Origin: Stentor roeselii
Lineage: Eukaryota; Ciliophora; Heterotrichea; Heterotrichida; Stentoridae
Reading direction: 5' to 3'
Assembly (NCBI GenBank): GCA_006503475.1
Contig: RSEH01000306.1
Location: forward strand, 1-44,276
DNA length: 44,276 bases
The position numbers were made by a program, and so were the translations under genes. Below are positions 4,289-38,326 of the stretch, in pieces; position 1 is the first letter of the stretch, and every line of letters begins with the position of its first letter. The notes below the pieces were generated by a model. It did no database searches. It had not been told where the DNA came from and saw nothing but the letters and a program-made list of their open reading frames with translations.

Positions 4289-5156
4289 TTATTATTATTT
4301 AGATTGGCGAGATGATTCGATTTGGATGTATTGTTTAATTGTAGGTTAAGGAACATGGGCTTTGAATGGTTGGGAAATTTTTTGGTTTTAGAATATGGTA
4401 AAGGATTAGAAATAGAGAATTTAAATAGAAGATTTAGAAATGATAGAGAATTTTTGTTTTTTGGAAGGAAGGGGTTATTGAAATAATAGGGATTTATTTG
4501 GTTTGGAATGAAATAGTTATTTTTTAGGATTTTAGTGAGTTTTTAGTATTTAGTATTGGATGGGTTTTAATGAAATTTATGTATTATTCAACTTGAAGAA
4601 TTTTTATTAGTTTTTGGTTATTTATATGCATATTAATGGTTTTCTGAGGTTTGCATCTTGAAAGATTCGCAAGTTTATAAAATATTTACTTAAATTTAAT
4701 CATTTACGAATAATAATTACTAAATTCGATTACACTAATAACTTCACAACAGATTCTTCAAAAATATACGAAAATGAAAACATAATATTGAAACACTTAT
4801 AATTCAAAAATCGAACCAAAAACAGTTCTTCCTCAATTTTCCTAGTCCCAGTCTAAAAGGTCAATGTCTTAAACCTTCAAACCCAAACAACTTTCTCAGA
4901 AACCCAGCAATAAATAAAATTCAGGGAAGTAAAAACATAAAAATTCCAAGTCTAATACAAAAATCCACAGAAAATATAAAATTCCATCAAAAAACCTCTT
5001 ATTTTAATTTAAATCGCTTAAAAATCTTCAAAAACTTAAGGAATCACCAAACAACTCTAAACAGAACCTAATAAACCACTTAAAACAAAAGGCTTCAATT
5101 TTTAAATAGAAATTGTTTGAGACCCATTCCTTATTTCCAGCCATTAATTACTTATA
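4289..5156. other. Bidirectional intergenic spacer
   Basis: This spacer lies between two divergent genes and has no supported gene. Top-strand composition runs from G/T-rich next to the left gene (4330-4620) to A/C-rich next to the right gene (4720-5110). Both promoters must lie here. The sequence just before the right-hand ATG is TTATAATGG. Confidence 0.55.
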
Positions 5157-12885: not shown

Positions 12886-13130
12886 TGAATTAAGTTGAAA
12901 TACTGAATATCACGGATGGAATTTACTTGCTATGCTGATTTATATTTAAATCATCTAACAAAGAAATTTTTACATTCTGCAAAAAATAACTCTTAAAACT
13001 CACTCATTCAACAACCAGCCTAACCAAAAAATATCCCTGATAATAAAGTCCCCAAATCCCACCGAGCCATTAAAATCCTTCATCTCTAAAAAAACTAAAA
13101 ATCCATTAAATTTTTATCCTCCACACATAA

Positions 13131-15065
13131 ATGCGTCCAGGCATAACAAAACTAAAGTTAATCGAAGATGTAGAAGACCGTTTAAAAGACGAGATCCCTT
13201 CACTTGCATACATCCAATCAGAGCTAAAGCAAAAACTTCATTTAAACTCGACAAACGAGCGAGAAGTGCGGTTTTCCGAGCTAGTCTACGACGAAAGCTG
13301 CGACCTTCTCGTGAAAACAATGGATTCAATGCGGTCCTCACAGCGGGTTCAAGACTTCCAAAACCAAGTCAAGCGAATTTACAAGTATCGAGTCGAAGCA
13401 GCAACAAGAGACAGTTTAATTGAAAAGACTGAATCGCCTTGGATCATTCATTCAGAAGTCGTGGGGAATATTTTAGAACAGGCCAGTTATAATAAGGACC
13501 TTCTTCAGCCTTTTTTCAATAAAGCTCTTCCGAGACAATTGAGGAGAAATGTTTGGAGAGCGTTGTTGACATACCCTGAGGCTGAAGAAGATTACTTGGT
13601 ATTGTTTAAAGAAGCTAAGTGGAAGACGATTTCATTGAATGAAGTGGAAATTACGAGGAAAAGTGTGGAATTGCTGTCTGAGCATTGTGGGAAACTTGCA
13701 TATAATGAAAAGGTAGTGACTGCTATGAAAGTTGTTTTGAGTTATATTGAAAAAATTATTGAAAGACGACTTCCTGAGTATATGTTTTATATCATGCTGC
13801 CTATTATGTATATTCTCTCTGACCTGGCCTCCAGCCTGCCGCGTCTAATCGGTATCTGTTTAAAACTAGCAGAGATCCAAACAACAGTCTGGTTAAGCAG
13901 CAAAGAAACTCCATTAATCCAAGTGTTTTTCCAAAGTCTCGACATGATAAACCCTCAAGTCACTGAAAAAATCCATTCATTACTCGACCTAAACTTCCAA
14001 GAAAACAACTTAAAACTAGAAAACTTCATCCGTCCGTTCATAGCACGTTTAAGCACAAGTTACTTCCACATCGACACAACCTGCGTAGTATACGACCAGC
14101 TGATAATGATTAACACCCTGAACAAAATGCTCTTCATTCTCGCCTTATCTCTCGATCACATCTCTTCCGCTTTGATGACCGTTCAACACTGGGACGATTT
14201 TTGCGTAACTTTCTTAAAAGGCATGAAAAAAATCAGCCCTTTAACTCTTGAGAGTTTTTTAGAACGACTTCCTGCAACTGAAGACTTAGAAGCGAAGGTA
14301 AAAATTCCTGCTGATTTAAAAGGGCAGGATTATCTCCAGTATCGAGTTCAGGCGCAGTTTGACTTGGAAGATTCGAAGACCAATCAACATGGAGACCTCT
14401 TGTCTCATAAGCGAATTTTAGCAGAAGACCCTGTTTTCGGCATTCAACAACAGAAGATCATGAAAAATAACTTGATGGAAGCCGCTTTGAACCAAAGTGT
14501 TCGACCAGACCGGAAAAGAAACACTTTAATAAATGCGAACCTTACAAGGATCAGTGTGAATTCAAGAGAACGGTTCTCAGGACAGGTCTCTCCAGCTTTA
14601 AACCTATCAAAAGAGTCAAAAGTTTCAAAAGAAATCATAAACTTATCAGGGTCTAACGACATGTTCATTGAAGAAAATTCTTTTCCTAGGAAGAAAAAAG
14701 ATGATTCAAGTAAATCGATTTTTCAGGATTCTTCATTTGACCCTAACGTTTCGCCGATGATTTTAAAAAATAACAGACTAGCTGACAGTACTTTTGACCA
14801 GAAAAACATGATATCAAGCAACAGGACGATCAAAGATGTGATCCCGTCGAGTAAACTCGAGTACTCAATGGAAAAACCTAACTTTCAGGTCTCTCCAAGA
14901 ATTATTCCTTCGGACATGTCGGGTGAGTCCCCCAGGATCCCCCCTGGCCAGGAGAATTCTTTTGTGGAAGACTTGCAGGACTTGTCGTATTTGGAATGTG
15001 GGATACTTGGAGTACCTGACTTTGAAAAGCTGAAACCGAGACTTTTAGATGGGTTTGATGATTAA
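13131..15065 (+). CDS. Divergent TBC-domain-like protein
   Basis: The protein has 644 residues. About 130-400 has the outline of a TBC (Rab-GAP) fold: an entry motif F-x-K-A-L-P-R-Q-L-R-R-N-V-W-R-A-L-L at 130-150, then all-helical sequence with a LPEYMFYIMLPIMYILSDL stretch at the place of the central helices, and a later Y-F-H-I-D-T-T-C-V-V-Y-D-Q segment. The finger motifs that make TBC proteins GAPs, IxxDxxR and YxQ, are not visible, so a catalytically weak or non-GAP member resembling TBC1D19 is the best reading. The last ~240 residues are polar, Ser/Asn-rich and probably disordered. Its stop codon abuts the stop codon of the next, convergent gene without a spacer base. Residue-level homology would need a profile search. 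Confidence 0.72.
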   Translation: MRPGITKLKLIEDVEDRLKDEIPSLAYIQSELKQKLHLNSTNEREVRFSELVYDESCDLLVKTMDSMRSSQRVQDFQNQVKRIYKYRVEAATRDSLIEKTESPWIIHSEVVGNILEQASYNKDLLQPFFNKALPRQLRRNVWRALLTYPEAEEDYLVLFKEAKWKTISLNEVEITRKSVELLSEHCGKLAYNEKVVTAMKVVLSYIEKIIERRLPEYMFYIMLPIMYILSDLASSLPRLIGICLKLAEIQTTVWLSSKETPLIQVFFQSLDMINPQVTEKIHSLLDLNFQENNLKLENFIRPFIARLSTSYFHIDTTCVVYDQLIMINTLNKMLFILALSLDHISSALMTVQHWDDFCVTFLKGMKKISPLTLESFLERLPATEDLEAKVKIPADLKGQDYLQYRVQAQFDLEDSKTNQHGDLLSHKRILAEDPVFGIQQQKIMKNNLMEAALNQSVRPDRKRNTLINANLTRISVNSRERFSGQVSPALNLSKESKVSKEIINLSGSNDMFIEENSFPRKKKDDSSKSIFQDSSFDPNVSPMILKNNRLADSTFDQKNMISSNRTIKDVIPSSKLEYSMEKPNFQVSPRIIPSDMSGESPRIPPGQENSFVEDLQDLSYLECGILGVPDFEKLKPRLLDGFDD

Positions 15066-16568
15066 TTAATAAATCGAGTAACGGACTACTACTGAGACTT
15101 GAGGATTTACTTGATTTAAAGTGTTTTTAAGGGTTTCAGTTATTTTGTTGTTTCTGATGTAAAGTTTTAGGTTTTTTGTCTTTTTTGTGAGAATTGGGAG
15201 AAGAAGTTTCGCTCCTTCGTCGTTGATATCGTTGTCGTCTAGGGATAGGTCTTGAAGAGAGTCTTTTGAAAGGATCTGGATGATGAATGGAATGCTTTTG
15301 CTTGAAAGTTGAGTCTTTTGAAGGCCTAAAGCCTCGAATTCTGAGAGGGTTGGAAGAATGTCGCAGAGGTATATTAATCCTTCGTCTGATATGCTGTTTT
15401 GGTTTAGGGAAAGAAGTTTTAAATGGGGAGTTGAATGTAATGAGTAGCTGAGAAGTTGTCCTGATATTTCGGTTAAAGCGTTTTTGTGCAGGAAGAGGCT
15501 TTCTAGTGATGGGAATGAGGATAATGAGTTGCACAGATATTTGCACCCTTCATCAAGAATGTAATTTTCCCCTATATTAATATCAGATAATTGACTTAAA
15601 GAGCCAGTTGATGAAAACAAAATTTTACACCCATCTGATCCCAGACCTGCCCTTGAAACATCTAGACTTTTCAACTTGGTAAAAATTCCGATAACAACAG
15701 ACAAATCCTTCGCCACATATTTATAATCATCTCCAATAAATATCCTGTCTTTTTCCACACCATCCAAGGCATCCTTAAACAAACCTTTGATACTCTCAGG
15801 CATATTTTGCTGATTTTTTTCGAAGTGTTCATAAATTTTCAAATAATCATTATTAAAACTTCCCAGATTATTTTTTATTTCGATAAAGTTTTTAAACATT
15901 TCCAAATTAAAGGTAACAGTGAAAATTTCTAGATTTTTCACTATTTTTTCTATTCCTTCATAGTCATTTTCTTCGATTATCCGGAAAATCTTGTCGGATA
16001 AATCGAGTTTCAGCTCAAACTGTGCCTTAGTGACTTTTTCACTTAATAAATCCAAGTCTTTTTCAATATTTTCCAGTTCTTTTAATGCAATTTCTTTACT
16101 TTCTTCAAGTTTTAGGTAAGTTTCTTGAAATACTTGAAGAATTTTATTTTTATACCCTTTGCAGTTTTCTATACTAACCGAAAGAAACTCTTTTAGCTTT
16201 TGAACTTTACTTTTGCGATTCAAATAGTTAGAAACACTTGAGTCTTTCACAAACTGAACCGCTTTCAAAGGTTCTAAAGAATGAGAAATATCAATTTTTG
16301 AATGGTTCAATAGACAACCTGAGCAAAGAAAGTTACTTCGACCTTGACAAAGACAAACGAAATCAGGATTATTCAAATTGCAATCTTCACAAATTTCTCC
16401 ATCCTGCAGGTCTTCCGTGCAGATCTCCCAAAACTCATGCCTTAAATTCGGCAATTTTTTTCGATGATCCCTAAAATGATCAGCACAAAATACCTTTTGC
16501 CTAAATTTACAAACACAATTGATCTCAGCCCGATTGAGACACAATTTAACAGAGCATCGAGTTTCCAT
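15066..16568 (-). CDS. B-box-like zinc protein with coiled coil and RI-type LRRs
   Basis: The protein has 500 residues. Residues 1-95 hold two tandem Cys/His clusters, C-V-C-K-F-x5-F-C-A-D-H with following His residues and then C-E-D-C-x8-C-L-C-x6-L-C-S-G-C with following H-S. This is the spacing of paired B-box-type zinc fingers, as in TRIM proteins. About 105-270 is coiled coil. About 290-485 has five to six ribonuclease-inhibitor-type leucine-rich repeats (pattern L-x2-L-x-L-x2-N-x-I-x-D-E-G). No RING finger precedes the B-boxes, so ubiquitin ligase activity is not indicated. The role is probably a protein-interaction scaffold. Its start lies 18 bp past the stop of the kinesin-like gene on the same strand, an unusually close tandem arrangement, so its promoter must sit inside that gene's 3' end. 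Confidence 0.82.
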   Translation of the reverse strand: METRCSVKLCLNRAEINCVCKFRQKVFCADHFRDHRKKLPNLRHEFWEICTEDLQDGEICEDCNLNNPDFVCLCQGRSNFLCSGCLLNHSKIDISHSLEPLKAVQFVKDSSVSNYLNRKSKVQKLKEFLSVSIENCKGYKNKILQVFQETYLKLEESKEIALKELENIEKDLDLLSEKVTKAQFELKLDLSDKIFRIIEENDYEGIEKIVKNLEIFTVTFNLEMFKNFIEIKNNLGSFNNDYLKIYEHFEKNQQNMPESIKGLFKDALDGVEKDRIFIGDDYKYVAKDLSVVIGIFTKLKSLDVSRAGLGSDGCKILFSSTGSLSQLSDINIGENYILDEGCKYLCNSLSSFPSLESLFLHKNALTEISGQLLSYSLHSTPHLKLLSLNQNSISDEGLIYLCDILPTLSEFEALGLQKTQLSSKSIPFIIQILSKDSLQDLSLDDNDINDEGAKLLLPILTKKTKNLKLYIRNNKITETLKNTLNQVNPQVSVVVRYSIY

Positions 16569-18562: not shown

Positions 18563-20968
18563 ATGGACCACATCACTTACATCGACGAAATTTTATACTT
18601 AAAAAAAGACTCTTTTCAAGAAGTTCCTGAATTTTCACTAAAAATCGAAGAGACAACTTACAAAATCACTAAAAAATTGAAAGAAAATCACTTCATCGGC
18701 CGTGCTTCAGACAACAACTTTCTTCTCCAGATCTTTCCAGAAGGCGAGTTTTCCGAGTCCGAGCTTTTAAAACGTGAGTCAATGATTCCTGTGATAAACG
18801 GACTTCAGAAGTCTTTTCATAAAGTTTCAGGCCAAGTGGTTCTTTTAAGTAAAGAAACTAGAAGAGTGAGTCTTCAGGAGTACTTCGAGTATAAAAGAGA
18901 TGCAAGGATCCCGAAGACACTTCGAGAAAGTACCGAGCTTTGTGTTGATGTCATAATAAAAGCTTTGCAAGAAGTTATTTCAAGTGTCGCTTCTTTGGAA
19001 AACCATGATTTCGTCTTGCCTAGTCTTGACCCTTCTGAGATTTTTATTGAAATAACACCCAACCCACTACACCCAATATTGATTACTGAAAACTTAGGAA
19101 TAGAGATAAAAATCGACTTGCTTATCATCAAGCCATCATTTGAAAACCCTTTAAAAGGCCTGGCCTTATGCGTTTTTTCTGCTTTAAAGAATAAACTTTG
19201 CAGGCAGGTTAATCTTGAATCAAAACAACTGAAAAACCCTAAAAGTCAGAAAGGTTATCCCTTCGCTTTATGTGGATTGATCAGTTCGTTAATGGAACCT
19301 GAAGCTAAAGCTCAGGAAATTTTATTTTCGCCTTTTGTTAGCACCTGGATCTTCTTGTTTAAGGACAATGACTCGATACCTCAGCCGACTACTTTTGACA
19401 TTGATGCTCTACTTGCAGGGCTTTACTTTAAAAATAAAGCAAGTAGAACTAAAGCTGTTTTTACGATGATTTCACAGGAAAGGGAAAGGTTAATTGATGT
19501 CATTCGTGCAAAACCTTGCTTTAATGAAAATTCCAAAAGAATCATTAAGACTATTGCCAGGGTTAGACATTGGCAAAGGTTTTTACCTTTTGTTGAAATG
19601 GCTGTTGCACTTTTAGATGAACTTATTGATGAAAAAGCGGTTTTTGAAGCTGGACCTTTGAAAATGTTTAAAGTTATTCATATGCCTAAGATTACTTTTG
19701 AGGTTATTATTAAGATTTGCTCGAGTAAAACTATGACTGCGGCTTGCTTGCTTGCGAATTCGAGGGTACTTGTTGATAAGATTGCTGAGAGGAAGGAGGA
19801 TTTTATGAGTATTCTTCCGTTTATGGGGTTTCAGTCGATTTCGTACCTGGCAGAAAGCAACATTCTAGGTCCATACGAGAAGTTAAAAGTCCTCTCAAAA
19901 GTCCCAATAAAAGTAAAGCGTCTCAGAACACAAGACATAGTCGAAATAATCCAAAAGAACATCCAACTATCCTGCCAAAAAGTAGGTCCATCCAAAACAG
20001 TTCTAAAATGCTTAAAAATAATCCGAGAGATTTTCTACGACGGAAAACAAGCTCACGAGCAAAACAAAGCCGGCCGTTGTTTCAAAAACGAAAAAAAGCT
20101 AAACGCGAGTGTCCTAATGGTCTACTGTCAAAAATGCACAAGTTACATGTGCCTTGTGTGCGGTAGTTCCCACACAGAGATCCACGACAAAAAGCACTTA
20201 AAATACGTGCATTCAAACGAGTCCTGCAAGAAATCCGGTGAATCTTTCGAGTTATTAAAAGACATTTTCGCATTAAACGAAATAAAACTGGAATTCTTCG
20301 ATTCTCGTGGAAACCTTTCAACTGACGGTATTTTTTCAAGTCAGAACTCGAGTGAAGAGGTTTCAATAACGACGACAGAAGGAGTGGTCACGATTTATGA
20401 TGACTCTTCTCACAGTACTTTGCTTTACTATGAAGTAGAAGTGATCAGTGCTGGCTTCAGTGAAAATATCAGTGTCGGGGTTGATGGGGTCGGAATTTTT
20501 TACACGGGGCATAACGGGTTCATCACTAATGAAGAAGGGATAGTTTTGAAGCAAACTGCGAAGTTTGGGACTGGAGATATCATCGGCATCGGCTTCACGT
20601 CAAGTCACTTTTTGTATTACACTTACAACGGGTATAACTTGCATTTTTATACTAAATGTCTCAATGTTCAGAATATTCGACCTTTGATCAGGTTCAAGGG
20701 AAGAGGTATTCAACTCAGAGTTGTCACTAAAAACTTTTTGTTTAGCCAGGCTCCTTATTTGGATCACTCGAAAAATACTGAAGAGGTTATTGATGTTATT
20801 CGCAAGTCGGTTTTAAGGTCGAATGATAATGAAAAAAGATTGAATAAGATTAATGATATTATTCAAGATGTTCCGTTTTTTAAGGACTTTCAGTTGCCCA
20901 AGACTGTTAAAAAAAATTCTGAACGCAAACAAATGAATGCTTGTAAAGATTCGTGTGTTATTAGCTAG
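18563..20968 (+). CDS. Pseudokinase-like, zinc-motif and SPRY domain protein
   Basis: The protein has 801 residues. Residues ~25-215 resemble a decayed protein kinase: a LKENHFIGRASDN strand pair, E-L-L-K-R-E-S-M-I near the alpha-C position, L-Q-E-Y-F-E-Y as hinge, and N-H-D-F-V-L-P-S-L-D-P-S-E-I-F-I in place of HRDLKPENI. No catalytic Lys/Asp/DFG set is visible. About 220-500 is helical and armadillo-like. About 505-555 has a Cys/His cluster (C-x22-C-x2-C-x4-C-x2-C, then H-x3-H-x3-H) like a B-box. About 600-755 is a SPRY domain, with L-L-Y-Y-E-V-E-V, I-S-V-G-V, F-G-T-G-D-I-I-G-I-G and Y-T-Y-N-G. SPRY domains bind protein partners. The kinase call is inference from pattern order. The start context is CTATAATGG. 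Confidence 0.78.
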   Translation: MDHITYIDEILYLKKDSFQEVPEFSLKIEETTYKITKKLKENHFIGRASDNNFLLQIFPEGEFSESELLKRESMIPVINGLQKSFHKVSGQVVLLSKETRRVSLQEYFEYKRDARIPKTLRESTELCVDVIIKALQEVISSVASLENHDFVLPSLDPSEIFIEITPNPLHPILITENLGIEIKIDLLIIKPSFENPLKGLALCVFSALKNKLCRQVNLESKQLKNPKSQKGYPFALCGLISSLMEPEAKAQEILFSPFVSTWIFLFKDNDSIPQPTTFDIDALLAGLYFKNKASRTKAVFTMISQERERLIDVIRAKPCFNENSKRIIKTIARVRHWQRFLPFVEMAVALLDELIDEKAVFEAGPLKMFKVIHMPKITFEVIIKICSSKTMTAACLLANSRVLVDKIAERKEDFMSILPFMGFQSISYLAESNILGPYEKLKVLSKVPIKVKRLRTQDIVEIIQKNIQLSCQKVGPSKTVLKCLKIIREIFYDGKQAHEQNKAGRCFKNEKKLNASVLMVYCQKCTSYMCLVCGSSHTEIHDKKHLKYVHSNESCKKSGESFELLKDIFALNEIKLEFFDSRGNLSTDGIFSSQNSSEEVSITTTEGVVTIYDDSSHSTLLYYEVEVISAGFSENISVGVDGVGIFYTGHNGFITNEEGIVLKQTAKFGTGDIIGIGFTSSHFLYYTYNGYNLHFYTKCLNVQNIRPLIRFKGRGIQLRVVTKNFLFSQAPYLDHSKNTEEVIDVIRKSVLRSNDNEKRLNKINDIIQDVPFFKDFQLPKTVKKNSERKQMNACKDSCVIS

Positions 20969-21191
20969 ATTATTTAGATTATGTGGGTTTTAGGTCAATG
21001 GGTTGTGATTTGATGGATTATTTAGTTAAATTCATGGAGTAGGGTGAATGAAAAGGATATAATTTTAATCCTAGATAAAATTTTTTTACAATCAATTCTC
21101 TAATAAATTTTTCCTAAACACAAACCATAAAATTAAAAAATCCATTAAATTTCACACAACTTTCATTTTCCTACTTATCAAAAACCCTATA
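20969..21191. other. Convergent spacer
   Basis: These 223 bp lie between two convergent stop codons. The left part (to ~21060) is G/T-rich and the right part A/C-rich on the top strand. Both 3' ends must be formed here. No gene seen. Confidence 0.5.
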
Positions 21192-25738: not shown

Positions 25739-26872
25739 ATGGACTATAAATCAATAGTCGATCGTCTATTCAACTCTCTAACAATTCCAAAATCTCCACC
25801 TCTTTCCTGCAAAGATTTCAAAAACAAAGTATTAGGAGTGATATTCGGGAACGCTCTCGGGGACGCATTAGGTCTACGAACCGAATTTTTCACTGAAAGC
25901 GAATCAATCCAACTATGGGGAAACGACGAGTTCCGCCTAACAAACTGGCCAGACCAGCAACGTGGTTTTCCCGAAGGAGACTGGACAGACGACACCGACC
26001 AAATGATCTTAATTCTTCAAAGTTTCCTGGAATCCTCTTCGCTTTCTCCTCAAGACTTCGCCAGAAGACTTCTTCATTGGATCCATCACGGAATTGAAGA
26101 ATTCGGCGATACATGCGGAATGGGCTTAGGAGCCTTAGTCGCATCAGTCACATTTTCAAGCACTTTTCTAAACGAACCTCAACAAGCAGCACTCGACCGA
26201 TGGACAGCTTCAAACTTCACAGCAGCCCCAAATGGCGCTTTGATGAGAACCAGCATTTTAGGAGTCATCAACTACGACGATTTACCTCAAGTTGTCTTTC
26301 AAACTGTCAACATCGCAACTGTCACTCATGCTGACCCGAGAAGTGTCGCTTCTTGTGTGGCTTTGACTTCAATTATCGCTTTGATCTTGCAAGGACATGA
26401 ATTTTTTAAAGCTTATGAATTTTCAGTGATTTTAACGAAAAATTTCATTTTTGAGTACACCCAAGAAGTTGAAAAAAAAATTATTGCAAATCAGGAAAAA
26501 GGTCAAATTTTTCAAGCTGTGAAGAAAAATTTTTCAGCAGATGTGCTTGAATTTTACTTGAAGGCAGAAATTGATCAAGTTGGGAGAATTGACTTGGAAA
26601 CTATGGGATTTACTTATTTTTGTCTTGCTTGTGGATTCTGGGGAAGTAGGCAGGAGGATTGGGTTACTGCGATGAGGAAAATTGTGTTGAAGGGAGGCGA
26701 TGCTGATACGAATGGCGCTGTTGCTGGAGCTGTTCTTGGGTGTAAACTGGGTTTTGATGCCTTGCCGCAACATTTGGTGACTGGGATGAGGCATTATTCA
26801 TGGCTTAAGGAAAAAGCTGATTTATTGATTGAAAAAATACGCCCGAGTATTGATGAGTTATATTCAGATTAA
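25739..26872 (+). CDS. ADP-ribosylglycohydrolase family protein (copy 2)
   Basis: The protein has 377 residues and is paralogous to the 21192-22358 gene. Metal motifs DWTDDTDQMI (about 80-89) and GGDADTNGAVAGAVLG (about 319) are intact, with FGNALGDALGLRTEF at about 37-51, PNGALMRTSILG and THADPRS. All expected metal ligands are present, so it should be an active ADP-ribose-removing hydrolase. Unlike copy 1 it is on the + strand and separated from it by the VIT-VWA gene, so the duplication was inverted or rearranged. The two differ most in the segment between THADPR and the second metal motif, which suggests different substrates. Codon choice moves from A/C-ending in the first half to G/T-ending in the second. 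Confidence 0.94.
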   Translation: MDYKSIVDRLFNSLTIPKSPPLSCKDFKNKVLGVIFGNALGDALGLRTEFFTESESIQLWGNDEFRLTNWPDQQRGFPEGDWTDDTDQMILILQSFLESSSLSPQDFARRLLHWIHHGIEEFGDTCGMGLGALVASVTFSSTFLNEPQQAALDRWTASNFTAAPNGALMRTSILGVINYDDLPQVVFQTVNIATVTHADPRSVASCVALTSIIALILQGHEFFKAYEFSVILTKNFIFEYTQEVEKKIIANQEKGQIFQAVKKNFSADVLEFYLKAEIDQVGRIDLETMGFTYFCLACGFWGSRQEDWVTAMRKIVLKGGDADTNGAVAGAVLGCKLGFDALPQHLVTGMRHYSWLKEKADLLIEKIRPSIDELYSD

Positions 26873-26905: not shown

Positions 26906-28876
26906 TCATCTACGTGTATCAACCTCTGGAGTGAATGAACTTCTTTCGGTTTTTTGTACAGTGTATGAAACTCTTGGAAGACAGACAGGTTTACCGTCAG
27001 GTAAACAGCTTAACCAGTTTTCTTCGATGTTTTGGACGTCGCTGGTTTTGTTTGAACGGTAGTATCGGTGCTTGCTGGTTAATGTTGGAGTTGCAGAACT
27101 CACACGGCTGTGGCTCTTTCTTTCTATGCAGTCTCTGTACCCTTCCGCTGACTTCAGCACAGACTTCTGACTCGGAGGTCTAACATTAAAATCTTCAATC
27201 AGCACTCTAACCATTTCCTGATTTCTTCGTATTTCTTCAACCAAAGTCGAGCTTTCACGAGTTTGATCAGAAACCAAACTACAAAGCGGTCCCCTTACTT
27301 CTTTTATTTCACTTCTCACTTCTTGAAATCGAATTTTCATACATTTTTCATTATTTTCTTCAAGTTTCTTCAGATCCTTGACTTCCTTCTGCAACAAGCT
27401 GACAGTTTCCACGAACTTCAAATGACTTTCTGACATTTCCTTAACCTGCTCCCTGATAAACTTCTTAATCAATCCAAAATCATTAGAAACTTTCGTGATT
27501 TCAAGTTCAACCCTAACCATTCTTTTAAATTTTTCATCAATTTCCTTGAAAACTTTTTGAATTTCCTGAGATTTTTCTACTTTTTTCTCTTTTTTCTCAA
27601 CAATCTGAGGTTTTTCCTTAGTAACTCCACTTCTTCTAAGAGCTCTAAGGAAGCTTGCTTGCATGACTTCGATTTGTGATGCGAAATCTTTGAGTTTCTG
27701 TTCAATTAAGTTGATATTTTCTCGAATGTCTCCGATTTCATCGTCGAATCTTGAAGTACTTTCTTTGAAAAGTAGGAAGTCTTGTTGGTTGTCGTCGATT
27801 TCTTTTTTTACGGTTTCGAGTTTTTTTGTTAGATTGCGAATAGCGGCTGATCCCATCATTCGACTGGCGGCGCTGCTTGTTTTGCTGTTTTTTCTCATGT
27901 AACTTCGAGAATCCGCTCGACTTGAAGTGATGTTTTTAGGAGAGTCTTCGGCTTTCATGACGGTCGGGATTCTTACTTCGATTTCTTCGATTTTTTCTTG
28001 TTTTTCGTGTTTTTCGTGTTTTTCGTGTTTTTCGTGCTTTTCGTGTCTTTCTGTTGATCCTGATCTTTCTACTCTGGTTTCAGTTTCCGAGTTTTCGTTT
28101 TTTGATTTGTCTTTTGTTTCGATTGAGTCTTTCATGTCGCTTGCATCGTTTGAGCTATCGTCTTGAATCTCGATTGACTTCTTGTCTTTTAGTACGGCTC
28201 TCTCCAGATCATCCATCATACCATCCAACTCTTCTTGACTATCATAATCCTCATCAAGCATCTCTTCATTAAAAAGCTGCTGCAACTGCTGTTCAATTCC
28301 AGCAACTTTCGTTTTAAGTTGCAAAACCTCTTCAACAACAGCAGGTTCCTGTGTTTTTTTCGGCTTCAAAACATTACTAAGTTCAATTTTGAGTTTAGTT
28401 TTAAACCCTTCAAATTCAGACAAGATATGTTTTTCCATTCGAGTCTTCATCATTCCAACTTCTTGACTCAAAGAGTTGAAACTACTCCACGGAACTCGTT
28501 TATTAAACAGACTTTCCGCATCTTCTGAAGTAATTTTATTATTCAACTGAGACAAAACCGATACACTGAGTTCATCAACTCGATTTTTCACAGACTTGTC
28601 CAAAACATGCGAAACTTCATCAATCCTCGCATTGAAATAATTGACTGAAACAAGATGTTCAAAGCGAGACCTCATTTCAGTCAACAGGTTTTCATGATTT
28701 TTTATTTGCGTTGAAATTTCGTGAATGTGGCTGAAGGCTTCTTTTGAAAGTTCTAGTTCTCGGATTGCCTCGCTTAAAGATATCTTTCCTTTCGTTACTT
28801 CAGAAATTTGCTTTGCTAGCTCTGATGAAGCCATTAATAAGAAGTTTGAATATGTCGAAGACTGATAATAATTCAT
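26906..28876 (-). CDS. Coiled-coil protein with HEK repeats
   Basis: The protein has 656 residues if begun at the first ATG, or 642 from the second Met (MASSELAKQ, base 28834). The second start is more likely because the first overlaps the start codon of the divergent gene. Helical coiled-coil segments run at about 20-210 and 345-560. An acidic, Ser/Glu-rich linker separates them. It contains a run of HEK triplets at about 276-292, encoded by a 9-bp tandem repeat. The C-terminal ~90 residues are basic and Ser/Thr-rich (KSHSRVSSATPTLTSKHRYY). No catalytic domain is present. It is probably a structural or adaptor protein of the cytoskeleton, but no family is recognised. Confidence 0.8.
   Translation of the reverse strand: MNYYQSSTYSNFLLMASSELAKQISEVTKGKISLSEAIRELELSKEAFSHIHEISTQIKNHENLLTEMRSRFEHLVSVNYFNARIDEVSHVLDKSVKNRVDELSVSVLSQLNNKITSEDAESLFNKRVPWSSFNSLSQEVGMMKTRMEKHILSEFEGFKTKLKIELSNVLKPKKTQEPAVVEEVLQLKTKVAGIEQQLQQLFNEEMLDEDYDSQEELDGMMDDLERAVLKDKKSIEIQDDSSNDASDMKDSIETKDKSKNENSETETRVERSGSTERHEKHEKHEKHEKHEKQEKIEEIEVRIPTVMKAEDSPKNITSSRADSRSYMRKNSKTSSAASRMMGSAAIRNLTKKLETVKKEIDDNQQDFLLFKESTSRFDDEIGDIRENINLIEQKLKDFASQIEVMQASFLRALRRSGVTKEKPQIVEKKEKKVEKSQEIQKVFKEIDEKFKRMVRVELEITKVSNDFGLIKKFIREQVKEMSESHLKFVETVSLLQKEVKDLKKLEENNEKCMKIRFQEVRSEIKEVRGPLCSLVSDQTRESSTLVEEIRRNQEMVRVLIEDFNVRPPSQKSVLKSAEGYRDCIERKSHSRVSSATPTLTSKHRYYRSNKTSDVQNIEENWLSCLPDGKPVCLPRVSYTVQKTERSSFTPEVDTRR
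28002..28050 (-). repeat. 9-bp coding repeat encoding HEK triplets
   Basis: On the top strand TTTTTCGTG is repeated five times in tandem with one T-to-C change, giving consecutive His-Glu-Lys triplets in the coiled-coil protein. It is an in-frame microsatellite with period three codons and is likely to be polymorphic in length. Confidence 0.85.
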
Positions 28877-30923
28877 GCCTAAACCTGCGGATATTCAAAG
28901 AATCAAAAAAAATAAAGGAATGCTGGAAAAGGAAGAAATCGCTTTGGTTGATGATCAGGGTGCTGTTGTTTCAGTTACTTATAAATATAAAAACCCGATT
29001 TTTTCTATCTTTGAAGATGATTTGTTTGCTGAACTTTATAATGCGCGTTGTCATGACTCTGGAGAAAATCTTGATACTGATAGTGCGAAAACTTTCAGGG
29101 AAGAGATTTTGAAGAGGAATGATCAGAATGTTGATGTGATTATTTTGAACTCTTTGAGACTGGGGATCAACTCGATTATTTCTTTGGCTAATTCTTTGAT
29201 TTGTAGAAGGTTGCTGAAATTGAATATTGCGGATAACTCCATCTCAGATTATGGAGTTCATGCAATCAAAAACATCTTAGAATGCACTGAAATCCAACAT
29301 CTCAACCTAGCCTCGAACATGATATCAGGAGAAGGCCTTGAACACCTAGTCGAGGTCCTCTCTGAGCACAAAACTCTAAAATATTTAAATCTCGGTCTCA
29401 GTGAAGGAAGTATGAGAAAAAATTCCCTTGGTCTTCAAGGCGCCACAAGTCTTGCCAACATTCTTTTCCTGAATCAGTCAATAGAAACTCTTATACTAGA
29501 AGACAATGACATCGGGACTCCTGGAGGTGAATGCTTTGGATTGACCCTTACTCGGAACAGTACATTAAAATTTCTGAAAATAAGTGAAAATGAACTGAAA
29601 ACTGAAGGAGCCGTTCATATTATCAAACATGCTTCGAAATTGGAAACTTTGGACTTGAGTAAGAATTTTATCACCTCTGAAGCTGGACCTGCTATTGAAA
29701 AATTGCTAAATCAATCCAAAAGGCTAAAGAAACTCACTTTGGAGTATAATGAACTTTTGGCTCCTGGAGCTGAAGCTATTGCGAGAGGACTTAGAAGGAA
29801 TGGAACTTTGAATAGCTTGAATTTGAAAGGGAATATTTTGGGTGATGAAGGTGTCGAGTCACTCCTAACAGTCCTCCAAAACAACCGAAGCATAACCGAT
29901 CTAAACCTCTCTCTAAACGAGATGGGTCCAGAAGGAGCATCATCTTTAGCCGAGATCCTTTCAAACACCAAAATAAAATCCTTAGACCTAAGCAAGAACT
30001 ACCTTGGCAACGAGTCCACTTTAGTCTTCGCACGAATCCTGCAGCCTCCAAAGCCATGCAAGTTAAAATGGTTAAATCTTTCTTCCTGTCGAGTAGGCGA
30101 CACAGGAGCTCAAGTCCTTTTCAGCTGTTTAATCGAAAACCAATACCTTCAAACTTTAAACCTTTCCGACAACTTCATCTCAGAGAAACTCGAGTCACAC
30201 ATCCTGACATCAGTCGAACAAAACTACTTCCTCTGCTCCGTGGCCCTCAAAGGAAACCGGCTAAGTCACAGCTGCGTCTCTAGGGTGTTAAAAATCTGTG
30301 AAAGAAACAAACGCGAAAGAGAAAACGCGGAACCCACTCGCCTTCAAAATGAACAATACCGACTCGAATTTGAAAGAAAAAAAATGATCATGGCTGAAGA
30401 GAAACTCATTCGAAAAGCAGAAGAAGTTGATAAGGCAAAAGAACTTCGACAGGATATTTTCAGTCAAATTGAAGTTTTAAGGGAAAATGAGAAGTCTAAG
30501 AGGGAATATGAAAGGCAGAAGATTCAAGAAGAAATTCTTAATGTCGCTGAAAAACAAAGCAGAATTGAAAAAACTAGAATGGAATTAGTGCAGGTTAAGG
30601 AAAAGTATGAGAAAATGTTTGAAGAAATTAAAAGTGAGTATCTTGAAACTGTTAATGAAAAAGATAAGATATTGAAGGAAATTCAGGAAATTACTGAAGA
30701 AAGTAAAAAGTTTGAAGAAAGTGTTCCTCTCGTCGTCAGCGCTGTCAGAGAAAAAATAGAAGAAACTAAATTCCAGACCTTGATGTTCGAACAAGAAAGC
30801 AGAGCACTTCGAGAAGAAATCGCGAAGGCCGATGCAGAGATAACTGAACTAAAATCAAAACAAGCAGAAAGTCTCCAAATCTCAAAAATCAAGAAAATAA
30901 AAAAAAACCTGAAGAAAAAGTGA
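28875..30923 (+). CDS. RI-type leucine-rich repeat protein with C-terminal coiled coil
   Basis: The protein has 682 residues. After ~85 residues of N-terminal sequence, about 90-480 contains twelve to fourteen ribonuclease-inhibitor-like repeats of ~28 residues (L-x2-L-x-L-x2-N-x-I-x2-E-G-x3-L), as in NLRC3 or T-complex/NPH-like LRR proteins but with no NACHT domain. About 490-680 is a continuous, highly charged coiled coil ending in Lys-rich KIKKIKKNLKKK. Proteins of this architecture are usually scaffolds, and several ciliary ones are known. A later Met (MLEKEEIAL, 28920) could also be the start. It is divergent from the HEK coiled-coil gene with touching start codons and convergent with the next gene across 25 bp. 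G/T-rich and A/C-rich codon blocks alternate along it. Confidence 0.88.
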   Translation: MPKPADIQRIKKNKGMLEKEEIALVDDQGAVVSVTYKYKNPIFSIFEDDLFAELYNARCHDSGENLDTDSAKTFREEILKRNDQNVDVIILNSLRLGINSIISLANSLICRRLLKLNIADNSISDYGVHAIKNILECTEIQHLNLASNMISGEGLEHLVEVLSEHKTLKYLNLGLSEGSMRKNSLGLQGATSLANILFLNQSIETLILEDNDIGTPGGECFGLTLTRNSTLKFLKISENELKTEGAVHIIKHASKLETLDLSKNFITSEAGPAIEKLLNQSKRLKKLTLEYNELLAPGAEAIARGLRRNGTLNSLNLKGNILGDEGVESLLTVLQNNRSITDLNLSLNEMGPEGASSLAEILSNTKIKSLDLSKNYLGNESTLVFARILQPPKPCKLKWLNLSSCRVGDTGAQVLFSCLIENQYLQTLNLSDNFISEKLESHILTSVEQNYFLCSVALKGNRLSHSCVSRVLKICERNKRERENAEPTRLQNEQYRLEFERKKMIMAEEKLIRKAEEVDKAKELRQDIFSQIEVLRENEKSKREYERQKIQEEILNVAEKQSRIEKTRMELVQVKEKYEKMFEEIKSEYLETVNEKDKILKEIQEITEESKKFEESVPLVVSAVREKIEETKFQTLMFEQESRALREEIAKADAEITELKSKQAESLQISKIKKIKKNLKKK

Positions 30924-30948
30924 AATTTTTTACTAATCTTCTATATTT

Positions 30949-33189
30949 CTACAATTTCTTCAACATCAAAAACCCTTCAGAAGACTCTCCAGTGAACCCA
31001 ACACTGACCCTCGCTCTTGCAGGTAAAGACAAAAACTCCGAGCAAGTAAACCCGACAACATTTCCCGAAGAATGTTTTCCGATGACTCTTCCCTGCAAGG
31101 CAGAGTCATTAATAACAGTTTCTCCATTGACCATAAGTGAAACAGACCCTTTTTTCCTGCAAAAGACTCCAAAGGCAACAGAATAAAGCCCAGGAGTAAG
31201 AGCGAGGACCTGAGTTTTATCTTTTTCCCATACAAAGTTCTCAGGGCAGGTGTTAAGTGACTGCACTTCCCAAGGCACGCAGCCGGTTTTTAAGTCTCCA
31301 CTTTTCCAAAGCCACCTTGCGACACAGTTTTCAGCGCATAAGGCTTCATTGATGCAGTTTTGCTCTTTTAGCTTCTCAGTCAGTTCGTCAATAGCGACTT
31401 TCGCGTCTAGTTCAGAGTGAAGGTCTTCTAAGGCATGGTTGACGTCATCAATATTCGCTTTGATATCGAGTAAAGTGCAGATGTCTTTTATGTTTGCTTT
31501 TAAAAGGACTTCTTTTCCTATTTTTTCTACTTCTGAAGAAAGACTGTTAAAAGAAACTTCCCAGTCCTGTCGTTTTACAGAAGTCGATTTGAAGTCTTCC
31601 AGGTAAGAATGAAGATTGTCCATGGAACTTGTCTTCGCAGCTAAAGAACTAGAAAAAGCTTGTAAGTCTCTTTCAGTTTTTACTAAAGAGTCCTTTGTGG
31701 TCAATGCCAGGTCCTGTATGCGAGAAGCGAGATGTTCTACTTTTGACTGAAGGTCTTCCTGAGAGTTTCTCAAGTCTTTCACGTCTCTTGACTCTGGCCT
31801 TCTGGACTCTTCTGCTCTGAACCTTTTAGAGTCTTCAAGTTCTCTTTGAAGTTTTTCCAGGTCGTATCTGAACTGCCGGGATTCTTCATTTTTTGATCTT
31901 TCTGAAGTTTTTGCGAAGTCTTCTAAGTCGATTTTTACCTTTTCTGATGCTGTCCGGATTTGGTCTTTGACGGTAAATTGTTCGGATTCGATGGTTTTGA
32001 ACTTGTTTTCAATGAAGTTGACCTGTTCTTTCCAGGTGCTTTCAAGTCTTTTCAGCTCTTGCTTGTTTACCTGCTGTTGAGAGGTTATCATTGAAGAGTA
32101 GTCACTTTTGAAGCTGTTTAGCAAGTAGTTCGCTTCTTCGCTATCGAGTTTTTTTAGAACCATTTCGCTGATTCTTTCGATTTCTTTGAAGTCGACCTTT
32201 TTCTCAATTTGACTTAAAAAAGTCATTCTTTGCATTTCCAGTTCGCTTTTTAAGTCACTCACGTAACTGCTGAATAAAATACTCTGTTGTTGAAGTTTTA
32301 TCTCAACTTCTCTTTTCAAGCTGTTTAAAGATGTTAAAACTGAATCAATTTCTCCTTTATCCCCTTTTTTTGATAGTTCCTCACGAAAAACCTTTTCGAA
32401 AATACTTAAATCCGCCTTTTTTTCCACTTCAGAAACAAGTTTGTTAAAAGAAGAAAGACTTGCTTTTGACTCTAAACTAGAAGTCAGGGTCTCTAAAGCT
32501 GAAAAATTCACTTTTTCTGAAAGTTGTTCGTCGACGTCAGCTTTGTTGGCTTTTTTGTGAAGAGCGTTTGCGACACTTGTTTTTGTTGCCTTTTCGTTCA
32601 GGGCCGCGTTCATTTCTGATTGGTCTGCCTTGGCTTCGAGGAGTTTAAGTAAAGAGTTTATGTCACGTTGGGTTGCCGCTGATTGAAGGGAGGTCACGAC
32701 GAAGTGCTTTAAATCGTCGAATGCGTTTCGGACTGACCTTAACTCGTTTTGAAGGTCTTTTACATCTGCTTTGAACTCGATCGCTGTTCTGAATTCCTCG
32801 ATACTCACTTTACCTTGAAGAAGGTGCAGAAGGTCTGATTTGCTTACCCGGTCTTCGAGGACTGACCGGATTTCTTCGTAGCTTATTTTGTTGTCGAGAG
32901 AAGCCCGGGTCTCTGCTACAGCTCTAGAAAGATCAGAAAGATTAGCTTTCAACGCGAGATTCGAGGCGACTTCTGACTTTAAAGCGAAATCTCCCTGACA
33001 AAACTGTAGCTCCTTTAATCCAGTGCCCTGATACTTGGCAAGGTCGGCAAGTGCGCGGCATGTAAGTCTTACAATATCTTGAACGTTGCGCCACTCATTA
33101 ATGCCACTTAGAAGATCTTCAACAATAGTGCAACTACTTGGATGTTCATATTCTTGCGCTCTCGAAAGAGGTAAATCACGATTGTTCAT
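30949..33189 (-). CDS. Repeat coiled-coil protein with C1q-like C-terminal domain
   Basis: The protein has 746 residues. About 70-300 has degenerate repeats of ~20 residues with a K-A-(N/D)-x2-(D/E) step (NLALKANLSDL, LLEAKADQSEM, LHKKANKADVDEQL), each a helical turn-and-restart unit typical of ciliate coiled-coil proteins. About 300-600 is continuous coiled coil. The last ~110 residues are a compact beta-rich domain. It has W-E-V-Q-S-L-N at its start, L-T-P-G-L-Y-S-V-A-F-G-V-F then C-R-K-K-G-S-V-S-L-M-V-N-G-E, and ends A-R-V-S-V-G-F-T-G-E-S-S-E-G-F-L-M-L-K-K-L. This matches the strand order of a C1q/TNF-like jelly roll. No signal peptide is seen, so unlike animal C1q proteins it is probably cytosolic. 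The jelly-roll assignment is inference from pattern. Confidence 0.8.
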   Translation of the reverse strand: MNNRDLPLSRAQEYEHPSSCTIVEDLLSGINEWRNVQDIVRLTCRALADLAKYQGTGLKELQFCQGDFALKSEVASNLALKANLSDLSRAVAETRASLDNKISYEEIRSVLEDRVSKSDLLHLLQGKVSIEEFRTAIEFKADVKDLQNELRSVRNAFDDLKHFVVTSLQSAATQRDINSLLKLLEAKADQSEMNAALNEKATKTSVANALHKKANKADVDEQLSEKVNFSALETLTSSLESKASLSSFNKLVSEVEKKADLSIFEKVFREELSKKGDKGEIDSVLTSLNSLKREVEIKLQQQSILFSSYVSDLKSELEMQRMTFLSQIEKKVDFKEIERISEMVLKKLDSEEANYLLNSFKSDYSSMITSQQQVNKQELKRLESTWKEQVNFIENKFKTIESEQFTVKDQIRTASEKVKIDLEDFAKTSERSKNEESRQFRYDLEKLQRELEDSKRFRAEESRRPESRDVKDLRNSQEDLQSKVEHLASRIQDLALTTKDSLVKTERDLQAFSSSLAAKTSSMDNLHSYLEDFKSTSVKRQDWEVSFNSLSSEVEKIGKEVLLKANIKDICTLLDIKANIDDVNHALEDLHSELDAKVAIDELTEKLKEQNCINEALCAENCVARWLWKSGDLKTGCVPWEVQSLNTCPENFVWEKDKTQVLALTPGLYSVAFGVFCRKKGSVSLMVNGETVINDSALQGRVIGKHSSGNVVGFTCSEFLSLPARARVSVGFTGESSEGFLMLKKL

Positions 33190-36439: not shown

Positions 36440-38326
36440 ATGGCTCCTAGAGTTATCGTCTTAGTGGCTCTGCTTTTCCTTACAAAAGCACTAATTAATG
36501 ACCCTGCATTGAAACAGAAAGCTTTAGCAAACGAGTTTTTACAACTAACTGAGAGTAGTACCTCTTCATCAGAAAGTGATAGCTCTGAATCAGATAGTAG
36601 CACCTCTTCGTCAGAAAGTGATAGCTCTGAATCAGAAACAAGCATATCTACATCAGAAAGTGAAAGCTCTGAATCAAGTGCATCTTCATCAGAAAGTGAA
36701 AGCTCTGAATCCAGTGAATCTTCAGAAAGTGATGACTCTGAATCCAGTGCACCTACACCAGAAAGTGAAAACCCTGAACCAATAACATCTACATCAGAAA
36801 GTGATAACTCTGAATCCAGTGAATCTTCAGAAAGTGAAAGCTCTGAATCAAGTGCATCTTCATCAGAAAGTGAAAGCTCTGAATCCAGTGAATCTTCATC
36901 AGAAAGTGATGACTCTGAATCCAGTGCACCTACACCAGAAAGTGAAAACCCTGAACCAATTACATCTTCATCAGAAAGTGAAACCTCTGAGTCAAGTGAA
37001 TCTTCATCAGAAAGTGAAAGCTCTGAATCCAGTGAATCTTCAGAAAGTGAAAGCTCTGAATCCAGTGAATCTTCAGAAAGTGAAAGCTCTGAATCCAGTG
37101 CATCTACATCAGAAAGTATTGACTCTCAATCCAGTGCACCTACACCAGAAAGTGAAAACCCTGAACCAATTACATCTACATCAGAAAGTGAAACCTCTGA
37201 GTCAAGTGAATCTTCATCAGAAAGTGAAAGCTCTGAATCAAGTGAATCTAGATCAGAAAGTGAAAGCTCTGAATCAAGTGAATCTTCATCAGAAAGTGAT
37301 AGCTCTGAATCAGAATCAAGTATATCAGAAAGTGATAACTCTTCATTAGGAAATGGAATCAACCCTTCAGAGACCTCGAATTCAGAAAATACTGAAACAA
37401 CTTCAGATACTTCGAACTCAGAAAATAGTAACACCTTAACAAGTTCAGGCACTATTACTTCAGAAAATACTGAAGAAAACTTAGAAAATACTGAAGAAAA
37501 CTCAGAAAATAATGAATCCAACTCAGAAAATACTGAAGAGGACTTAGAAAATACTGAAGAAAACTCAGAAAATAATGAATCCAACTCAGAAAATACTGAA
37601 GAAAACTCAGAAAATAATGAATCCAACTCAGAAAATACTGAAGAGGACTCAGAAAATACTGAAGAAAACTCAGAAAATACTGAAGAAAACTCAGAAAATA
37701 ATGAATCCAACTCAGAAAATACTGAAGAGGACTCAGAAAATACTGAAGAAAACTCAGAAAATACTGAAGAAAACTCAGAAAATACTGAAGAAAACTCAGA
37801 AAATACAGCAAGCGACCATTCAACTAATGATAATAATGAAAGCTCAAGCCAAAATTCTGAAAATTCAAATAATGAAAATTTCTCTAATGAAGAGGCTGCA
37901 GGCTCAAGTTCAAATACAGAAGGCATAACTACCGAAAATTCGGCAAGTTCAAGCTCAGACTCTGAAAATTCAGCAAGTTCAAGCTCAGACACTGATAATT
38001 CATCAAGTGCAAACTCAACTACTGATGATTCACCAAGTAGCGCCTCAACTACACAAAATACAATTAGCACTTCCATTAGTATAGAGGGTTCGTTGACCAT
38101 ACCTGATGGAGCAATTTCAAAATTTGAAATTTCTTCAAATTCTTCACCATTATCTGAATTATCAAACAACAATCCTGATGCGATAGCCCAATCATTAAAT
38201 TCAAATATAAACGAGGCGATAGAAGGTTTGAACCATCTCATCAATAGTAATTCTGGCCAAAGCATATCATCTACATCCTTTTCATTCTTGGATTTAAATA
38301 GGACAACTAATCAGATATCTAGTTAA
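36440..38326 (+). CDS. Secreted Ser/Glu-rich repeat protein (copy 1)
   Basis: The protein has 628 residues. The N-terminus (MAPRVIVLVALLFLTKALIN) is a signal peptide with a hydrophobic core at 5-14. About 35-300 consists of Ser/Glu/Asp repeats (SESESSESS units) interrupted three times by APTPESENPEP. About 340-455 consists of Asn/Glu repeats (ENTEENSENNESNS), then SSSDSENSA units. The last ~90 residues are less repetitive (IEGSLTIPDGAISKFEIS...) and may be a small folded domain. There is no Cys, so no disulphide framework. Numerous S-x-E sites suit secretory-pathway kinases and would make it a strongly acidic, calcium-binding or mucin-like polymer. A role in the extracellular coat, mucus or extrusome contents is inference. 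It shares its leader with the gene at 41781. Confidence 0.82.
   Translation: MAPRVIVLVALLFLTKALINDPALKQKALANEFLQLTESSTSSSESDSSESDSSTSSSESDSSESETSISTSESESSESSASSSESESSESSESSESDDSESSAPTPESENPEPITSTSESDNSESSESSESESSESSASSSESESSESSESSSESDDSESSAPTPESENPEPITSSSESETSESSESSSESESSESSESSESESSESSESSESESSESSASTSESIDSQSSAPTPESENPEPITSTSESETSESSESSSESESSESSESRSESESSESSESSSESDSSESESSISESDNSSLGNGINPSETSNSENTETTSDTSNSENSNTLTSSGTITSENTEENLENTEENSENNESNSENTEEDLENTEENSENNESNSENTEENSENNESNSENTEEDSENTEENSENTEENSENNESNSENTEEDSENTEENSENTEENSENTEENSENTASDHSTNDNNESSSQNSENSNNENFSNEEAAGSSSNTEGITTENSASSSSDSENSASSSSDTDNSSSANSTTDDSPSSASTTQNTISTSISIEGSLTIPDGAISKFEISSNSSPLSELSNNNPDAIAQSLNSNINEAIEGLNHLINSNSGQSISSTSFSFLDLNRTTNQISS
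36556..37332 (+). repeat. Coding minisatellite, Ser/Glu units
   Basis: Units of about 18-33 bases built from TCAGAAAGTGAAAGCTCTGA and variants are arranged in higher-order blocks that end in the segment coding APTPESENPEP (three occurrences). This gives a super-repeat of several hundred bases. The alternative frames of this stretch are also open, an artefact of the repeat. Confidence 0.9.
37461..37805 (+). repeat. Coding minisatellite, ENTEENS units
   Basis: A 21-base unit (GAAAATACTGAAGAAAACTC-A, coding ENTEENS) alternates with a variant coding ENNESNS or ENTEEDS to form longer repeats. The unit boundaries keep frame throughout, so selection on the protein is likely despite repeat turnover. 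Confidence 0.9.

Follow-up and report, generated by a model that had tools for sequence, protein, structure and literature searches.

A kilobase-scale, mostly one-directional sawtooth of strand composition across genes and spacers of the ciliate Stentor roeselii

The stretch of DNA analysed here, hereafter the window, comprises positions 1 to 44,276, the full length, of contig RSEH01000306.1 of the heterotrich ciliate Stentor roeselii. It contains two neighbouring open frames, one of 656 aa on the minus strand (26906..28876), without a Pfam match at E 0.001, and one of 682 aa on the plus strand (28875..30923), with leucine-rich repeats (PF13516). Across these frames the keto skew K, in which G and T count as +1 and A and C as -1, follows a sawtooth: it rises slowly and then falls abruptly, an event that we call a reset. 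The first frame contains falls at 27138 and 28200, the second at 29235, 29859 and 30729, and together they delimit four blocks. Block 1 (27138..28200) lies inside the minus-strand gene, starts A/C-rich, ends G/T-rich and is bounded by falls with z scores of -5.8 and -6.0; at 28197 the residual skew of third codon positions drops from 0.47 to -0.60. Block 2 (28201..29235) spans the border of the two genes and ends inside the plus-strand gene with a fall of z -5.9 (third-position residual from 0.65 to -0.46 at 29237). Block 3 (29236..29859) is entirely within the leucine-rich repeat gene and ends with z -5.2 at 29859 (from 0.31 to -0.64 at 29862). Block 4 (29860..30729), within the same gene, ends with z -4.4 at 30729; there the third-position residual goes from 0.37 to -0.36 at 30722 and the raw skew reaches merely z -1.5.

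A preliminary description of this DNA had reported such resets from hand counts, and these counts are exact: 32 G and 11 C at 29761-29860 are followed by 16 G and 30 C at 29861-29960, and G+T changes from 0.68 to 0.37 between 19741-19840 and 19841-19940, and from 0.68 to 0.43 between 28081-28200 and 28201-28320. Seven of the eight resets named there were recovered at z<-3, at 27138 (named as 27183, 45 bp away), 28200, 29235, 29859, 30729, 13815 and 19844. The eighth, at 19045, is weak (z about -2), and is nonetheless within the 25 largest raw falls (19049).

We analysed the whole window, all of a second contig (C1, 156,753 bases) and part of a third (C20:1-40000), which amounts to 241,029 bases or about 0.5% of the 44.4-Mb, 522-contig genome. 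Coding segments were predicted by codon score under the standard code, giving 19, 72 and 17 segments in the window, C1 and C20, and they fill 63%, 66% and 70% of these contigs, respectively. The 107 segment-ending stops found among the 108 segments are 56 TAA, 35 TAG and 16 TGA. Reading on for at least 40 codons past the stop was possible in 8 of 56 cases for TAA, 5 of 35 for TAG and 0 of 16 for TGA. TGA behaves as a stop in this genome, and the standard code was taken as valid. Blepharisma, on the other hand, reads UGA as tryptophan (PMC9942806). Intron candidates of 10-79 bases, predicted from DNA alone, most commonly have 15 bases (12 cases, 7 of them GTA...TAG), followed by 21 (6 cases). 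Blepharisma introns are mostly of 15 and 16 bp (PMC9942806), and tiny introns are stated for Stentor in the title of a referenced work. Steps in K were scanned with 150 bp per side, using third-position residuals and noncoding bases, and were kept at least 300 bp apart; the asymmetry is the skewness of the difference in K between adjacent windows.

These analyses confirm that the sawtooth of slow rises and abrupt falls is real and strong, has a scale of about a kilobase, is mostly one-directional and extends beyond the window. We detected 137 falls and 101 rises at |z|>3, 58 and 13 at |z|>4, 26 and 1 at |z|>5, and 8 and 1 at |z|>6. The median distance between detected falls is 1231 bp, and 68% of the 137 falls with z<-3 are within coding segments. 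Raw keto skew, which is independent of gene models, has 56 falls and 18 rises that exceed |z| 4 in the 241 kb. The same measure gives 1 fall and no rise in 50 kb of Escherichia coli K-12 and neither in 50 kb of phage T4 (GC content 34%). A general property of DNA is thus ruled out for this bacterium and this phage, the only controls of this kind; T4 reaches z +2.2 at 300 bp, with a sign opposite to that of the sawtooth. For the third-moment asymmetry at 150 bp, the z scores are -3.3 for the window, -6.8 for C1 and -4.1 for C20 (pooled z -8.5, skewness -0.372). This asymmetry occurs only at scales from about 100 to 400 bp, having vanished by 600 bp (pooled z -0.2), and is absent from the purine axis (pooled z 0.3 at 150 bp). 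At 150 bp the G/C axis shows more of it (pooled z -5.0) than the T/A axis does (pooled z -2.9), where C1 alone is not significant (z -1.4).

Three results rule out chance and synonymous noise: the comparison with 200 phase-randomised surrogates of the window (z between -4.1 and -4.8 at 100-200 bp), the recurrence of the asymmetry on C1 and C20, and the synonymous shuffles. The synonymous tracks are built from 50,804 third positions, compared solely for T against C or G against A inside a codon block. Their skewness at 150 bp is -0.387, compared with +0.083±0.035 in 30 shuffles, so that the steps go beyond what codon shuffling produces, in line with the preliminary description. The standard deviation at 150 bp is 0.292, against 0.190±0.004 in shuffles within gene and block. 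Tracks from half of the data are weaker, with -0.148 for C/T-type sites alone and -0.055 for A/G-type sites alone. The two types of sites covary and shift by similar amounts. A piecewise-linear segmentation (one setting) gave 196 rising and 138 falling segments, compared with 184-219 and 183-209 in 10 surrogates, and 133 negative and 95 positive strong jumps, compared with 109-144 and 107-147. Hence, what stands out in the segmentation is the scarcity of falling segments and of upward jumps, not the number of downward jumps.

The shape of the sawtooth was measured on held-out data: one half of the sites served to locate the steps and the other to measure them (263 falls and 332 rises, both halves combined). 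Falls are abrupt, from +0.21 at -75 bp to -0.20 at +75 bp. Rises are gradual, with -0.09 and +0.11 at the same distances and extremes near 225 bp. The claims that resets are sharp, mostly one-directional and often intragenic are therefore upheld by the step counts and the held-out sites. In blocks of 800-1200 bp the skew climbs from about -0.26 to about +0.27, and up to a block length of 1.2 kb the climb is roughly linear. Blocks of 1.7-3 kb have skew only at their ends and a middle near zero, to which missed resets may contribute. When the residuals of C/T and A/G sites are folded onto the strand terminating at the fall, they change sign some 450-550 bp away from it, a distance to which neighbouring tails add. 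The autocorrelation is positive up to about 250 bp and has a minimum of -0.028 near 500 bp; its weakly positive value near 950-1000 bp is not significant.

Within genes the asymmetry is carried mainly by codon choice, in agreement with the preliminary description, since codon preferences on the gene strand switch between stretches of high and low keto skew. With local values that exclude the codon itself, the shares in keto-high and keto-low stretches are.82 and.25 for GAT (of Asp codons),.80 and.22 for TAT,.80 and.28 for AAT,.38 and.06 for TTG,.42 and.06 for AGG, and.42 and.82 for CAA. Most amino acids with a choice shift along the keto axis, including Asp, Asn, Tyr, His, Phe, Leu, Arg and Gln; the codon choice of Glu and Lys shifts little. 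Amino acid usage also tracks the skew, with Val, Gly, Cys and Phe commoner in keto-rich stretches and Ser, Pro, Thr and Gln commoner in keto-poor ones. The sawtooth is not a matter of codon choice alone, because spacers follow it clearly and codon positions 1 and 2 weakly: around 108 falls located on third positions, the noncoding bases change likewise.

One could imagine that selection on codons, mRNA or DNA shape, instead of mutation, produces the pattern. The codons of Gly provide the argument for it. On keto-rich gene strands GGT is rarer (.11 against.31), as is GGC (.06 against.19), and GGA and GGG rise, so that Gly deviates from the axis followed by the others. The ratio of GGT to GGA in spacers is nearly constant (263:364 and 53:69), and therefore something specific to coding sequence acts on GGT. 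As a general explanation, selection is very improbable given that spacers follow the skew, that the shift along one axis concerns most amino acids with a choice, and that amino acid usage is dragged along.

The preliminary description had also argued that an equal polarity in genes of both strands excludes a cause linked to the coding strand. This argument fails: a sawtooth of slow rises and sharp falls is identical after reverse complementation, and equal polarity is thus uninformative on a gene-linked cause. We therefore looked at the position of the skew relative to genes. Along the gene strand of segments of at least 900 bp, the mean third-position residual begins at -0.15 (5' end), reaches about +0.1 at 540-720 bp, is back at -0.15 around 1020 bp and stands at +0.08 where the segment ends (3'). 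Falls were counted in 150-bp bins around 66 segments. The two bins lying 150-450 bp upstream of coding starts together hold 22, the bin 900-1050 bp inside holds 12, the three bins that run from -150 to +300 bp relative to coding ends hold 27, and the remaining bins hold 0-9; these are raw counts, and one fall may serve two genes. Genes thus have C-biased 5' ends and G-biased 3' ends, as in unicellular fungi (PMC3315797), whose gene-end skew is the closest description of this gene-anchored part. There too the skew reaches the flanks and alters amino acid usage, and the T/A part is nearly flat, as in the gene-anchored profile here, which extends upstream of the coding start.

Transcription-linked mutation could account for such gene ends, with resets inside genes stemming from internal or antisense transcription units. 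It would be in line with the downward steps across tandem spacers (-0.21, t -3.9, n 44) and divergent spacers (-0.145, t -2.3, n 17); the step across convergent spacers, -0.11, is not significant (t -1.4, n 23). Several observations make it quite unlikely as the explanation of the sawtooth. The variance of the gene-anchored mean profile is 0.0050, compared with about 0.068 for the local skew, i.e. about 7%, and when this profile is subtracted the third-position asymmetry at 150 bp goes from z -3.9 to z -6.4 (corrected track, segments of at least 600 bp only). The asymmetry being stronger after its removal, a gene-end gradient as sole cause is rejected. In fungi the skew is described as an average gradient, which as averaged increases along genes without internal resets (PMC3315797); here 30 of the 37 coding segments of at least 1500 bp carry a fall with z<-3 at least 200 bp away from both ends. 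Internal steps of this kind with |z|>4 comprise 22 falls and 6 rises in 24 plus-strand genes, and 7 and 2 in 13 minus-strand genes. The choices of A and T swing at resets along with those of G and C, unlike in fungi, and the germline nucleus of a ciliate, Tetrahymena, is described as transcriptionally silent (PMC5585995). Promoters are not clearly preferred, because falls were detected in tandem (17 of 44), divergent (4 of 17) and convergent (8 of 23) spacers.

The bases that change at resets were studied at 2703 fourfold degenerate sites around 65 falls, which had been located from the remaining degenerate sites only. Read on the strand that terminates at the fall, the frequencies are.256 for A,.076 for C,.204 for G and.464 for T, compared with a folded background of.355,.145,.145 and.355. 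Hence, A and C are both depleted, G and T are both enriched, by similar amounts, and the GC content is little changed. This is the amino-to-keto direction, the one taken by A>G and C>T changes. As close as 60-120 bp to the fall, the asymmetry has almost reached its maximum. At C/T sites it depends on the preceding base: relative to held-out local skew, the choice has a slope of 0.18 where G precedes, compared with 1.46, 1.08 and 0.99 after A, C and T. After G it is 0.54 on the gene strand and -0.28 on the template, and in the context G-Y-T it is reversed (-0.51±0.08).

The combination of sharp falls and gradual rises resembles what replication may leave behind. Resets could be dense replication origins, with termination spread out between them to give the gradual rise. 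Human replication skew domains are far longer than about 1 kb. In Saccharomyces cerevisiae, Kluyveromyces lactis and Candida albicans, an origin is a downward step in keto composition, and human domains show sharp jumps at origins with a linear change between them (PMC3459929), which is the shape seen here. The bacterial and human polarity, in which the leading strand is G/T-rich, would give the wrong sign, so the yeast-like one would be required. Moreover, origins 0.6-1.2 kb apart would replicate one another passively, and in blocks of 1.7-3 kb, where resets may have been missed, the skew sits at the ends instead of changing linearly throughout. The jump in GC skew is about 0.9 at the fourfold sites of selected falls, against an average of 9% at S. 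cerevisiae origins (PMC3459929), so that jumps some ten times larger than those of yeast would be needed, a rough comparison as the two averages differ in kind. A GC-skew jump of 74% is reported for C. albicans centromeres and is not ascribed to replication (PMC3459929). Considering these elements, an origin at every reset seems improbable.

The sequence at the resets was searched for signals. The densities of TA, AT, CG and GATC are near flat at the 90 strongest falls, and the 3- to 6-mers at the 100 strongest are mainly pyrimidine words, as expected from a fine-mapping artefact. A purine/pyrimidine tract at resets was considered and found to be mostly such an artefact: the first 10 bp have -0.173 at fine-mapped falls and -0.113 at 282 random points treated alike. 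At unmapped falls the value is -0.021 for z<-4, which is not significant, and -0.061 (z -3.1) across all of them, and a small real purine/pyrimidine excess at resets is possible.

The density of the resets recalls the internal eliminated sequences (IESs) of ciliates. In Blepharisma stoltei there are 39,799 IESs on 41 Mb, about one per kb, and about 70% of them are intragenic in a genome where genes fill 77% (PMC9942856). The values found here are comparable, with 137 falls in 241 kb, of which 68% lie in coding segments, these occupying 63-70% of the contigs, and candidate introns of 15 bp; the resets are likewise spaced by about a kilobase and mostly intragenic. Resets could thus be the positions of IESs in the germline genome, a mutagenic process at IES ends (cutting, repair or insertion) shaping the retained segments from both ends. 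The main text of the Blepharisma study (PMC9942856) contains neither 'skew' nor 'asymmetr'. TA is not enriched at the 90 strongest falls (69.8/kb within 20 bp, 65-70 at 20-100 bp), a comparison of low power. A search for the PiggyBac family gave no match, but the controls gave none either, and it is therefore uninformative. Since breaks made by somatic excision are not inherited, a germline process would still be required. We regard IES borders as a rather doubtful explanation of the resets.

The explanation that we favour, with a probability of about 0.42, is that resets are fixed germline sites at which 3'-ended strands are exposed over about 0.5 kb, as in the resection of break ends, and mutate from A and C to G and T. 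The data directly display discrete sites, mostly one-directional steps, a decay over about 0.5 kb, and similar shifts at C/T and A/G sites, in spacers and in codons. We propose a model of resected breaks because the discrete sites, the sharp flip, the decay over about 0.5 kb and the change from A and C to G and T on the 3'-ended strand match resected break ends. A strand-asymmetric mutation process would start at discrete sites about 1 kb apart, in spacers and genes, which are presumably stable over evolutionary times. On each side, the strand whose 3' terminus lies at the site would become single-stranded over about 0.5 kb, as after a break and 5'-to-3' resection. Deamination or error-prone fill-in would then replace the A and C of the exposed strand by G and T, so that the cause would be mutation rather than selection. 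The top strand would as a consequence be G/T-rich on the left of the site and A/C-rich on its right, and the tails of neighbouring sites would merge into the gradual rise. In a ciliate, the process would probably belong to the germline nucleus, which is silent, and would only be displayed by the somatic sequence. A flip at a point and a depletion of A and C decaying from the site, both expected of break resection, are found here, and the confinement of the skew to the ends of blocks of 1.7-3 kb is as expected of tails of fixed length. Among the mechanisms put forward in the preliminary description, a DNA process acting from the ends of segments of about 1 kb fits best; very short replication units would need a yeast-like polarity and an implausible strength.

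Related phenomena are known elsewhere. In vertebrate mitochondrial DNA, single-strand exposure gives graded changes from A to G and from C to T, but there is one such gradient per organelle genome, tied to strand-displacement replication, whereas here there are more than 100 reset units on nuclear contigs. At the flanks of human meiotic breaks, C>N and A>N mutations mark one strand and G>N and T>N the opposite one, an asymmetry partly ascribed to single-stranded DNA (PMC7615360); we inferred the side assignment from resection polarity. The flip at the site, the opposition of A and C to G and T between strands, and flanks of kilobase order are common to both systems. Tetrahymena has a very low rate of germline mutation and a silent germline nucleus (PMC5585995), and therefore a rare source of mutation tied to sex could dominate. 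A match to the SPO11/TP6A N-terminal domain (PF04406), with 70.7 bits, lies at C316:14907-15089 and is the only one reported in the genome.

Several points weigh against the model of resected breaks. Sites every kilobase or so, genome-wide, are far denser than known meiotic hotspots. Rises with z>3, of which there are 101, are not rare. The asymmetry is also weaker in genes of the minus strand: the skewness of third positions is -0.499 (150 bp) and -0.377 (200 bp) in plus-strand genes alone, and -0.130 and -0.046 in minus-strand genes alone. The flat middles of long blocks could also reflect undetected resets. The strong context dependence is unexpected from plain spontaneous deamination. Unlike what human hotspots would give, there is no clear sequence motif at resets and no rise in GC: the third-position GC residual is 0.007±0.006 within 100 bp of falls and 0.023±0.006 near rises. 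The lack of such a rise counts against recombination sites, because biased gene conversion would raise GC there, which is not expected of every break. Finally, the human signal is a spectrum of rare variants at PRDM9 sites that reaches 2 kb, lacks asymmetry in the central ±100 bp and, for some mutation types, peaks 700-800 bp out (PMC7615360), whereas here it is the standing sequence that is skewed, with tails of about 0.5 kb, a spacing of about 1 kb and near-maximal asymmetry at 60-120 bp.

Other resets of the window are found in genes and spacers. The strongest fall (19840..19850) is in the plus-strand frame 18563-20968, with z -7.2 at 19844 and a third-position residual going from 0.81 to -0.48. 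Another is at 13805..13862 in the plus-strand frame 13131-15065 (z -4.9 at 13815), and one absent from the preliminary description is at 15532..15543 in the minus-strand frame 15066-16568 (z -5.2 at 15532). Falls in spacers are found at 12947, between two plus-strand genes (z -5.0), and at 21050..21087, downstream of both the plus-strand frame 18563-20968 and the minus-strand frame 21192-22358 (z -4.7 at 21087). The fall at 4660..4697 (z -4.9 at 4669) is not in a predicted coding segment. The genes at 21192-22358 (-) and 25739-26872 (+) are paralogues in opposite orientation, 51% identical, and their products presumably resemble ADP-ribosylglycohydrolases. Their skew profiles correlate with r 0.84 when aligned and 0.78 after a shift of 60 codons. 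Over 18 aligned pairs of paralogues the correlation ranges from -0.21 to 0.90 and is positive in 12, and shifted alignments often give similar values. The plus-strand frames 36440-38326 and 41781-42809 encode low-complexity Ser-rich proteins with similar hydrophobic N-termini, which suggest that they are perhaps secreted; the product of 36440-38326 has no Pfam match.

The preliminary description knew of no account of such a pattern, and among the open-licence papers listed in our searches, as judged by titles and the start of abstracts, none describes a kilobase-scale strand-composition sawtooth in a nuclear genome, which is not proof of absence. An asymmetry this large, flipping every few hundred bases within genes, goes beyond the descriptions of replication and transcription that we found for nuclear genomes. 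Codon usage, amino acid usage and the statistics used by gene finders depend here on the position in a block as well as on the gene, and analyses of codon usage, selection or phylogeny that assume one composition per gene could be misled. The context rule at C/T sites could help to identify the polymerase or deaminase involved. If the resets stem from break ends or IES borders, plain sequence would reveal where, and how far, germline DNA becomes single-stranded, in organisms where experiments of this kind are hard. A more far-reaching and distinctly speculative idea, which we think unlikely to hold, is that the somatic sequence is a strand-resolved fossil map of fixed germline cutting sites, one about every kb and possibly the positions of IESs, where strand exposure has dominated germline mutation over a period sufficient to set the codon usage. 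If this were true, the borders of germline segments, or the sites of breaks, would be readable from the somatic assembly alone.

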